A stretch of DNA of 64,000 nt. It comes from Acinetobacter pittii (GTDB lineage Bacteria; Pseudomonadota; Gammaproteobacteria; Pseudomonadales; Moraxellaceae). Where the stretch lies: assembly GCF_034067285.1 (NCBI RefSeq), contig NZ_CP139286.1:992001-1056000 (forward strand), given 5' to 3'. The position numbers and the translations under genes were made by a program. Shown here piece after piece: positions 16,467 to 19,302 of this stretch. The first letter of the stretch is position 1; every line of letters begins with the position of its first letter. A model generated the notes under the pieces. That model saw only the letters and a list, made by a program, of their open reading frames with translations, was not told the DNA's origin and searched no databases.

Positions 16467-17765
16467 ATGAGTTTATCTCCAAAGCAAGAACAGTTATTTA
16501 AACAAGCCAGTAAACACATTCCAGGTGGTGTGAACTCTCCAGTACGTGCCTTTAATGGCGTTGGAGGAACACCGGTTTTCATCGAGAAAGCTAAAGGTGC
16601 TTATTTGTGGGATGTCGATGGTAAGCGTTATGTTGACTATGTTGGTTCTTGGGGACCAATGATTTTGGGTCATGCTCATCCAGAAATTATTAAAGCAGTA
16701 CAAACAGCCGCAGAAGATGGTTTAAGTTTTGGTGCGCCGACTGTTCACGAAACAACGTTGGCAGATATTATCTGTGAAATCATGCCATCAATTGAATTGG
16801 TGCGTATGACGAACTCTGGTACAGAAGCGACCATGACGGCTATTCGTTTAGCACGTGGTTATACTGGCCGTGACAAGATTGTGAAGTTTGAAGGTTGCTA
16901 CCATGGTCACTCAGACTCACTCTTAGTAAAAGCAGGTTCGGGCTTACTCACTTTAGGTGAGGGTGAGCCGACTTCGAAAGGTGTACCTGTTGATTTTGCT
17001 AAACACACCTTAACGCTGCCTTACAATGATATTGCTGCATTAAAAGAATGTTTTGCTAAGTTCGGCCATGAAATTGCGGGTGTTATTATTGAGCCTGTCG
17101 CAGGTAACATGAATATGGTGAAACCAATTGACGGTTTCTTACAAGCCATTCGTGATATTTGTGATGAATATAAATCTGTATTCATTATCGATGAAGTGAT
17201 GACAGGCTTTCGCGTTGCACTCGGCGGTGCACAATCGGTATATAACGTTAAACCTGATTTAACCACTTTAGGTAAAATTATTGGTGCAGGTCTACCAGTT
17301 GGTGCGTTTGGTGGTAAACGTGAAATCATGGAATGTATCGCACCTTTAGGTGGGGTATATCAAGCAGGTACATTATCTGGTAACCCACTTGCTATGCGTG
17401 CTGGTATTGAGATGTTCACGCATCTTCGCCAACCAGACTTTTATAGCAACTTATCTGCTCAACTTGAAAAGTTACTTGCAGGCCTACAAGCTGCAGCTGA
17501 TGAAGCGGGTATTCCATTTAAGACTCAGCAAGCTGGCGCAATGTTTGGTCTGTATTTTACCGACCAAGAAGATATTACAAGCTTTGACTCTATGTTGGCC
17601 TGTGACATTGAAGCTTTCAAAAAGTTCTTCCATGGTATGTTAAAACGTGGAGTCAACTTAGCACCGTCTGCGTTTGAAGCTGGCTTCATTTCATCTGCTC
17701 ATTCAGACGAAGATATCGAGTTTACGATTCAGGCTGCGAAAGAAACATTCGCTGAAATGAAGTAA
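16467..17765 (+). CDS. hemL: Glutamate-1-semialdehyde 2,1-aminomutase
   Basis: PLP enzyme that makes 5-aminolevulinate from glutamate-1-semialdehyde in the C5 route to haem. At 432 residues it is full length. It opens with the typical [18 protein letters not shown], has [17 protein letters not shown] and GCYHGHSDS in the PLP region, [11 protein letters not shown] with the Asp that holds the PLP ring, and [18 protein letters not shown] with the Schiff-base Lys. It follows thiE closely and ends in a strong terminator. Confidence 0.97.
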
Positions 17766-17767
17766 GC

Positions 17768-17794
17768 AAAAAGCCCGTGTTAAACGGGCTTTTT
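17768..17794 (+). terminator. Intrinsic terminator after hemL
   Basis: AAAAAGCCCGT / ACGGGCTTTTT with a five-base GTTAA loop and terminal T run. Confidence 0.88.
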
Positions 17795-17826: not shown

Positions 17827-18531
17827 ATGTTTTACCCCTTACCTCGAAAAATCCAATTAGCAACAAGTACTTCAAATTGGTCAATTGAGTCTACGCAAAG
17901 TATATTGCTATTGGTTGGGCTCAATGAGCTTAGAGTACGACCAGATTGGTCTGAGCAACCATTGGCACACCATTTAGAACTGTTGAGTAAACGAGCGCAA
18001 TCACTCGAAATTCCAGTTATTTTTATAGATACAGCTCAGCTTCAACAAACCATGTTGGAGCTTGGTCAGCGTTTGTCATCAAATACTCAGGCTCAAGTTA
18101 TGATGGCAGGTGATTTGTCTCCTCTATTTAAGCAAGTCATGCAGCTTGTTTTATCGATTACAGATCAAGTCAGTGTGGTAAACGATGCAATCTTGGCGAG
18201 TAGCTTAGAGCAGCATATCCAATGGGTTGAAAAGATCAGTTTTGACTCCATTCAACATGTAAACACAAAGACTTTAATACGCTTATGGTCTTTAAGTGCG
18301 CCATCTTCCTATATCTTGTCAGATAAAGGAATTTTATTGGCAATTGCTGAACAGGTGGGGCGACATCCTATGGAGATCCATCCGGAAATTGATTTAAGAA
18401 ACTACGGACTAGATCAGTCTGCTGTTAATTATCTGGCCGATCTATGGCGTGCAAATGGTGCGAGATTGAGCGCAGAAGAGTTAATGCAAGCACCGACATT
18501 GCAACATATTATGCAGTTATTGAAGCAATGA
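17827..18531 (+). CDS. Degenerate EntB-like protein (pseudo-isochorismatase plus pseudo-aryl carrier domain)
   Basis: A 234-residue protein that aligns along its length with EntB, the bifunctional isochorismatase/aryl carrier protein (about 285 residues). ILLLVGLNE (26-34) matches the first catalytic strand ALLIHDMQD, but the catalytic Asp is Gly31. IPVIFIDTAQ (62-71) and VMMAGDLSPLFK (91-102) follow the same order; about 50 residues around the EntB catalytic Lys are missing, and the region of the family's Cys lacks it. The C-terminal 50 residues (NYGLDQSAVNYLADLWR) match the carrier motif NYGLDSxxxxxLAxxWR, but the phosphopantetheine Ser is Gln197, with a Ser next to it. No siderophore genes are nearby. 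Most likely a conserved pseudoenzyme or unrecognised protein-binding module; function unknown. The alignment is from memory of EntB. Confidence 0.68.
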   Translation: MFYPLPRKIQLATSTSNWSIESTQSILLLVGLNELRVRPDWSEQPLAHHLELLSKRAQSLEIPVIFIDTAQLQQTMLELGQRLSSNTQAQVMMAGDLSPLFKQVMQLVLSITDQVSVVNDAILASSLEQHIQWVEKISFDSIQHVNTKTLIRLWSLSAPSSYILSDKGILLAIAEQVGRHPMEIHPEIDLRNYGLDQSAVNYLADLWRANGARLSAEELMQAPTLQHIMQLLKQ

Positions 18532-18663
18532 CTGCCGATAGGGGCGAAGTGATCCATATTATTTGCAAATTCTGCTGTTAATTTACCCGAACGGCATTGT
18601 AATTCGGACGTAAGCTTTTTATTATTGCCCGCTTGTTTTTCATCTTACCTTGGGAATACAACT

Positions 18664-19302
18664 TTGAGTGATTTTCTAAGTGAACATCTGATCTATCGTG
18701 ATGATGATTTTATGGTGATTCATAAACCTTCGGACATTTTGAGTGTTCCTGGTAAGGGTGATTTACATGATAGCGTTTTGACAAGGTTGATTGCGATTGA
18801 ACCTAGAACCTTGCTCATTCATCGTCTAGACCGAGATACTTCAGGTATTTTAGTATTTGGTTTATCGAAGCGCGGTCAAAGTGCAATTGCACGTCAATTT
18901 CAAGATCGTCAGACTTCAAAAATATACGAAGCGCTTGTCGCAGGTCATTTAGAAGGTGAAGGGACTGTAGATATTCCTGTCATCTATGACCCAAGTCGAC
19001 CGCCTTTACATATTGTCGACGCTTCTCACAACAAACCTGCTTTAACACATTGGCAGGCCATAGAACATTTTCAAATTCAGGGACAACCTGTAACTCGTGT
19101 GAAATTAACACCAATTACGGGACGATCTCATCAACTCCGTGTACACATGCAATATTTGGGACATCCAATTGTAGGTGACACGCTGTATGCGACACCGGAG
19201 CAGCAACTTGTTCCGCGTTTATGTTTGCATGCCAAACAGTTAAGTTTTAATCATCCTGTCACAGCAGAAACATTAACTTTTGACTGTCCTGTACCGTTTT
19301 AA
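18664..19302 (+). CDS. rluA: Dual-specificity pseudouridine synthase RluA-like
   Basis: Predicted to make pseudouridine at 23S rRNA U746 and tRNA U32. At about 212 residues it has the compact RluA layout without an S4 domain: VIHKPSDILSVPGKG, catalytic HRLDRDTSGILVFG, VDIPVIYDP, KPALTHW, and PITGRSHQLRVHMQYLGHPIVGD. No ATG is available. TTG at 18664 has GGGA eight bases upstream and places the start as in RluA; TTG at 18625 would add 13 residues but has no ribosome site. It follows the EntB-like gene by 132 bp, possibly in one transcript. Confidence 0.87.
   Translation: MSDFLSEHLIYRDDDFMVIHKPSDILSVPGKGDLHDSVLTRLIAIEPRTLLIHRLDRDTSGILVFGLSKRGQSAIARQFQDRQTSKIYEALVAGHLEGEGTVDIPVIYDPSRPPLHIVDASHNKPALTHWQAIEHFQIQGQPVTRVKLTPITGRSHQLRVHMQYLGHPIVGDTLYATPEQQLVPRLCLHAKQLSFNHPVTAETLTFDCPVPF

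Follow-up and report, generated by a model that had tools for sequence, protein, structure and literature searches.

The window, a 64,000-nucleotide stretch of the Acinetobacter pittii genome (NZ_CP139286.1, positions 992,001 to 1,056,000), holds a solitary gene whose product follows EntB from end to end and lacks the active-site residues of both its halves. The isochorismatase half appears to be inactive throughout the family, and the carrier half has lost its phosphopantetheine serine in the clade of the window genome, which we take to be the calcoaceticus-baumannii (ACB) clade, a name that also occurs in a record title. Our leading interpretation, held at about even confidence, is that the ACB protein is an EntB-derived pseudo-isochorismatase/carrier whose carrier chemistry was given up in this one clade, and which has been kept as a cofactor-free protein-binding module.

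The gene and its surroundings

The features of the locus, in window coordinates, are as follows.

16467-17765: class-III aminotransferase ORF (presumably hemL), 432 aa, upstream of ORF 17827-18531
17773..17794, + strand: hairpin after hemL with a T-run (GCCCG..CGGGC TTTTT), a terminator as judged by eye
17827..18531, + strand: the whole gene, a probable EntB-derived pseudo-isochorismatase/pseudo-carrier of 234 aa (stop codon 18529-18531)
17827..18306, + strand: N-terminal pseudo-isochorismatase half, residues 1-160, limit approximate (profile alignment with 12 EntB/BasF proteins; no PF00857 match)
17917..17919, + strand: Gly31 codon, aligned with the catalytic Asp37 of EntB (Gly in 73/75 full-length orthologues and in 239/240 listed database proteins; EntB residue roles from excerpts of PMC12553813)
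18037..18090, + strand: junction lacking the EntB Lys123 segment, residues ~71-88, approximate (37 columns in the profile-profile alignment, longer in the MAFFT alignment)
18307..18528, + strand: aryl-carrier-like C-terminal domain, residues 161-234 (PF00550 match to residues 170-231)
18415..18417, + strand: Gln197 codon at the place of the phosphopantetheine Ser (ortholog and profile alignments)
18595..18629, + strand: promoter-like element upstream of rluA, TTGTAA-17-TATTAT (alignment and pattern scan)
18625-19302: pseudouridine-synthase ORF (presumably rluA-like), downstream of ORF 17827-18531

The first-pass annotation had described an intact frame standing alone between hemL and rluA, far from siderophore genes, and on both counts the wider comparison agrees. 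The ORF of 17827-18531 (+) runs through its 234 codons undisrupted, and the gene is full-length in 17/17 genomes of the clade. Its neighbours are two housekeeping genes, which we take to be hemL and rluA, and not a siderophore cluster; the genuine EntB-like gene of the window genome (G000, one contig of 3.69 Mb) lies 0.77 Mb away, next to a gene with a product that scores 687 bits in the DHB-AMP ligase model, below that model's cut-off of 724.

The stem of the hairpin after hemL is kept in 17/17 aligned clade loci, and the hairpin was not among the listed matches of a pattern scan. Before rluA, the blocks ATTGTA and TAT(T/C)ATTGC of the promoter-like element are invariant in 21/21 aligned loci, hand-picked across the genus, and the pattern scan found 3 promoter-like sites where 2.7 were expected by chance. 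The conserved element suggests that rluA has its own promoter, in which case co-transcription with the EntB-like gene would not be needed and the true rluA start would probably lie downstream of the TTG at 18625.

Homology to EntB and the probably inactive isochorismatase half

Profile-profile comparison (hhalign) of 25 orthologues with 12 EntB/BasF-type proteins gave a probability of 99.65% (E 5.2e-25) over 225 columns, a match that spans both domains and confirms the order first read from the sequence, i.e., an isochorismatase half followed by an aryl carrier. The sole Pfam family in the window protein is PP-binding (PF00550), with 22.6 bits over residues 170-231 (cut-off 20.8); it matched 57/57 aligned family members at E up to 1. 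For Isochorismatase (PF00857), the same E limit brought up nothing in the window protein, and 2/57 of the aligned family members matched, the better at E 0.07, short of the curated cut-off. When the single sequence was compared with solved structures, the best match to the carrier half was the yersiniabactin HMWP2 ArCP (2n6z; E 0.0036), which has the GLDS serine where the window protein reads GLDQ, and the N-terminal half aligned weakly with residues 9-76 of VibB (E 0.16).

The active-site constellation of EntB, as given in excerpts of PMC12553813, consists of Asp37-Lys123-Gly156 plus Gln39 and Gln79, and Asp37 is termed catalytic in an excerpt of PMC12210187. Each of the 12 EntB-like proteins used for comparison has all five, and 0/5 are kept in the window protein, where the MAFFT and profile alignments put Gly31, a deletion, Ser98, Asn33 and Thr69 at the places of Asp37, Lys123, Gly156, Gln39 and Gln79, respectively. 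Two of these changes had been called from the sequence at the outset, namely the replacement of the strand-1 catalytic Asp by Gly31 and the deletion of the catalytic Lys segment, and both hold, the Lys123 stretch falling in an alignment gap. The two orthologues without Gly at position 31 have one Asn and one Ala, never Asp; at position 33, where the window protein has Asn, Gln is found in 39/75. With these positions replaced or missing, no isochorismatase activity is to be expected of the window protein, and throughout the family the aligned full-length members lack active-site residues.

Loss of the carrier serine in the ACB clade

In the carrier half, the GLDS serine of EntB aligns with Gln197 of the window protein in a gapless register, as the first-pass annotation had proposed. 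The register remains gapless in 75 full-length orthologues (17 from the clade and 58 others, four disrupted copies being left out), and the carrier stretch L190-A212 is of equal length in all of them, so that Gln197 is a substitution and not an insertion. With Gln197, the window protein lacks the GLDS serine by which a functional 4'-phosphopantetheine carrier is recognised.

While Gly31 is nearly fixed among the orthologues, Gln197 is not. The serine position holds Ser in 57 of the 75, Gln in 12, Ala in 3, Thr in 2 and Leu in 1, and these states divide along the clade boundary: Ser is found in 0/17 copies of the window's clade (L001, L003-L018) and in 57/58 full-length copies outside it. The exception, L047 (G133), is full-length with Leu at this position, apparently an independent loss. 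Database proteins gave the same picture, in lists of best-ranked matches rather than random samples: Ser197 was present in 0/120 of the best 120 of 254 matches from the window search (Gln 108, Thr 7, Ala 3, Pro 1, His 1) and in 120/120 of the best 120 of 533 from a second search.

Could the cofactor instead have moved by one residue, to Ser198? This had been offered as an alternative at first pass, and Ser198 is indeed present in the window protein, in 14/17 ACB genomes and in 94 of the listed clade proteins (best 120 of 254). The position is not fixed, however, since the other 26/120 carry Pro (16), Ala (7), Val (2) or Phe (1), and the helix keeps its register without gaps. That the cofactor site has shifted is thus unlikely; we rejected Ser198 on these grounds and consider the idea very improbable indeed.

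In a 76-row tree, the 17 ACB rows made up a single clade (100% SH-aLRT) lying within the Ser-bearing ones; the serine state changed twice in total, the second change being the lone Leu of L047. Because the 17 Ser-less rows occupy a single nested branch, the tree shows what is best read as one loss of the carrier serine, on the way to the ACB clade. The EntB outgroup branch is very long, which leaves the root of this tree unsure; the Ser-bearing ancestor does not depend on the root alone, as the EntB relatives also have Ser. By this reading the two losses differ in age: that of the isochorismatase site is the older and appears common to all full-length orthologues. The first-pass annotation had presented a double pseudo-domain protein, possibly a non-enzymatic scaffold or the bearer of a new function. 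Both active sites are missing from the window protein, as it stated, but not through one event, the loss of Ser being confined to the clade and L047.

Distribution in Acinetobacter and beyond

The gene is present in 79/175 Acinetobacter genomes, 17 in the window's clade and 62 others. A single-sequence search at 1e-10 had matched 81/175, from which G022 and G172 were removed for matching via EntB-like proteins alone. A profile search brought the matching genomes up to 95/175; the extra 14 are read as EntB-like proteins, short free-standing carriers and carriers in longer frames, together with one gene remnant (G010). Record names in the window's clade include A. pittii, A. lactucae, A. nosocomialis, A. 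seifertii and A. calcoaceticus, among others, and one listed database relative is named A. baumannii (P0293). In a family scan of 199 genomes from 16 genera (Acinetobacter included), 2 genera matched, and the lone match outside Acinetobacter (G207) encodes a protein that shares 61% identity with EntB of the window genome. When 84,980 species, each represented by one genome, were scanned with a pattern, 50 loci came up, 49 in Acinetobacter and one in a Moraxellaceae MAG, which corresponds to the genus genome G146. Beyond the genus, these scans gave EntB-like relatives and no copy of this gene.

At 78/79 loci, all except L022, an rluA match lies in the fetched flank, close downstream; in L024 and L075 the gap to rluA is about 1 kb with another ORF inside. 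The gene is absent from 96/175 genomes of the genus and is therefore dispensable. Among 40 hand-picked rluA loci of these gene-less genomes, hemL was within the stretch in 28 and an HbpS-like gene in 15, and remnants of the carrier (C-terminal) half lay just upstream of rluA in three: a clear one in L161 (G010; 63% over 43 aa) and weaker ones, at 39%, in L168 (G165) and L169 (G125). Weak matches in L178 and L179 were located elsewhere and were treated as chance. Given the rluA loci without the gene, some with remnants, the gene looks old in the genus and repeatedly lost, and it would have been passed down in Acinetobacter at a single site ahead of rluA.

A separate observation concerns the gene after hemL. 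Many Acinetobacter have an HbpS-like gene there (PF03928 in 3/3 scanned; e.g., L074:1501-1917 and L109:3278-3700), for which a thioesterase identity, guessed from its length, was refuted by the Pfam match. Outside ACB, other genes often lie between the HbpS-like and the EntB-like gene. In the window's clade the HbpS-like gene is absent after hemL; the window genome's copies are elsewhere, away from the EntB-like gene, and include one that is 61% identical (G000:C1:1499556-1499960).

Selection on the ACB protein

The dN/dS comparison proposed at first pass indicated purifying selection: over 136 ACB pairs (Nei-Gojobori), the gene has a median dN of 0.087, dS of 0.706 and dN/dS of 0.129. By the same method the neighbours have ACB medians of 0.016 (hemL) and 0.030 (rluA), placing this gene at four times the rluA value. 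Outside ACB, dN/dS is 0.098 for this gene (127 pairs, dS 0.05-1.2) and 0.087 for rluA (304 pairs). The protein is constrained, though in ACB less so than its neighbours. Median synonymous divergence in ACB also differs among the three genes, at 0.71 here, 0.43 in hemL and 0.33 in rluA.

Branch sums from the 72- and 76-row trees pointed the same way: the ACB stem/rest ratio is 0.074 here against 0.038 in rluA, and the inside/rest ratio 0.073 against 0.025. Measured by rluA, the ACB rate of this gene is thus about 2-3 times higher than expected. Compared with the clade interior the stem is not lengthened (stem/inside 1.02, against 1.49 in rluA), and no burst of change is seen where Ser was lost. 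Partial relaxation would account for the faster ACB evolution, and so would a new role.

We also compared columns between the groups, in counts that are not independent events, as the rows include many near-identical sequences and the database and genome sets overlap. Of 120 columns in which at least 90% of 178 non-ACB sequences agree, 72 have the same residue in at least 90% of 137 ACB sequences, and 45 have a changed ACB majority: 35/84 in the N half (including two gap columns, opened by two additional residues in ACB) and 10/36 in the carrier half (177, 182, 185, 197, 198, 201, 205, 216, 218 and 228, several near the lost Ser).

These patterns bear on the view that the protein acts through its N-terminal half in all species, the ACB carrier domain being a structural appendage, for folding or solubility, with a dispensable cofactor role. 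In its favour, many N-half columns are fixed in both groups (e.g., Y3, P6, K8, I9, W18, G95, D120, H130, W133, H144 and R152), and this half is older as a non-enzyme than the carrier half's Ser loss. The carrier half, however, is constrained at least as much in ACB (dN/dS 0.105, against 0.144 in the N half, over 136 pairs with wide and overlapping ranges), and keeps its majority residue in 26/36 columns, compared with 49/84 in the N half. We regard the appendage view as rather unlikely, though it is the strongest of the competing accounts.

Slow decay in ACB after loss of the job, with the intact frames a mere snapshot, fares somewhat worse and is disfavoured. Decay is not foreign to the gene. 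It is missing from 96/175 genomes, leaves the G010 remnant and the weaker ones in G165 and G125, and is disrupted in 4/62 non-ACB carriers, i.e., L051 (G161), L078 (G023), L079 (G162) and L080 (G078); moreover, relaxed selection had been named in the first-pass annotation as a sign of a decaying gene, and the faster evolution relative to its neighbours in ACB agrees with that part. No disrupted copy was seen among the 17 ACB genomes, though, and all of these, as well as 120/120 listed clade proteins (from a protein search biased to similar length), are full-length. In addition, dN/dS is well below 1 in both halves, and the Ser loss is common to the whole clade, implying that the gene was kept through the clade's diversification. 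An intact frame under purifying selection, alongside partial relaxation relative to rluA, is the pattern of a maintained pseudoenzyme; a full-length ACB protein so constrained without its active sites makes a maintained non-enzymatic role plausible, and to that extent the scaffold or new function first proposed stands.

Candidate partners

Searches by neighbourhood and by genome co-occurrence across the 175 genus genomes found no partner. The neighbourhood candidates were rejected because hemL and rluA are housekeeping genes and rluA seems to have its own promoter-like element. For co-occurrence, a DHB-AMP-ligase-like gene was defined as a TIGR02275 match over 500 bits, a line of our own drawn at a gap in the scores (the next match is 306); it is found in 50/175 genomes, 9 of which pass the model's own cut-off. 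All carriers considered, 28/79 have it (p 0.09 versus non-carriers); outside ACB it does not track the gene, being present in 11/62 carriers and 22/96 non-carriers (Fisher p 0.55), and the ligase was set aside as a partner on this ground.

One might suppose that Ser was removed to stop a siderophore DHB-AMP ligase or a PPTase from loading the wrong carrier, as the ligase-like gene is present in 17/17 ACB genomes against 11/62 non-ACB carriers. All 11 of the latter keep Ser, however, and G133, the sole full-length Ser-less genome outside ACB, has no ligase match over 500 bits. Non-ACB carriers that keep Ser beside the ligase, and the many that lack it, argue against an obligate siderophore link and a simple story of avoided misloading, which we find improbable.

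A second tier of ligase matches (267-306 bits) occurs in 28/62 non-ACB carriers, 8/96 non-carriers and 1/17 ACB genomes, counts uncorrected for relatedness. Eight of its loci were fetched and the ORFs of four listed (L212, L213, L216 and L217); their CoA-ligase operon is, judged by similarity, presumably one of cyclohexanecarboxylate degradation, and on this reading we rejected the second-tier ligase as a carrier-loading partner. A PPTase-family gene is present in 174/175 genus genomes, the listed best matches mostly in open frames of ~200-300 codons. It may be a broad Sfp-type enzyme, and its presence makes modification of the Ser-bearing versions possible.

Relation to known systems

The protein resembles EntB, BasF and VibB in its full-length homology, domain order and GLD(x) carrier motif context, but it lacks the five EntB active-site residues and siderophore neighbours and, in the ACB clade, the carrier Ser. 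A 2016 FASEB J paper reportedly linked an isochorismatase to A. baumannii autophagy; since an excerpted review assigns the role to BasF, a different gene is probably meant.

Other non-standard EntB variants are on record, in which the two functions are separated: excerpts of PMC3343012 describe a stand-alone EntB of 213 aa without ArCP in A. baumannii ATCC 19606, and those of PMC12210187 a split EntB/EntB' in Stenotrophomonas maltophilia. These keep isochorismatase function, whereas the window protein keeps both domains and neither active site. In open-licence full-text literature we found no study of this gene, and the excerpts of PMC12210187, PMC12553813, PMC3343012, PMC3055841, PMC10483418, PMC3758355, PMC11734730, PMC7943614 and PMC12845397 do not deal with it.

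A proposed carrier without its cofactor

Pseudoenzymes are well known. The course of events that we propose begins with a gene descended, in all likelihood, from an EntB/BasF-type isochorismatase-aryl carrier protein. Outside ACB, its product would be a carrier that bears a cofactor and sits on an EntB-like platform without catalytic function, and an enzyme from another locus would load it. The ACB lineage would have given up the step that needs the cofactor and kept the protein for its contacts with other proteins; as a pseudo-carrier without cofactor, it would now serve a putative partner as scaffold or regulator. More tentatively, and at well below even confidence, this adaptor might be a decoy or regulator that binds a siderophore-pathway enzyme, an adenylating enzyme or a PPTase.

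In the databases, proteins of the clade, which includes clinically important species, are named 'isochorismatase', 'acyl carrier protein' or 'phosphopantetheine-binding protein', and by sequence neither activity is expected of them. If the proposed course is right, the Ser-bearing and Ser-less orthologues of sister clades would form a natural before-and-after experiment: a carrier domain that selection has maintained beyond the loss of its attachment Ser, while sister species retain the intact ancestral form, would make the role of an empty carrier directly testable.
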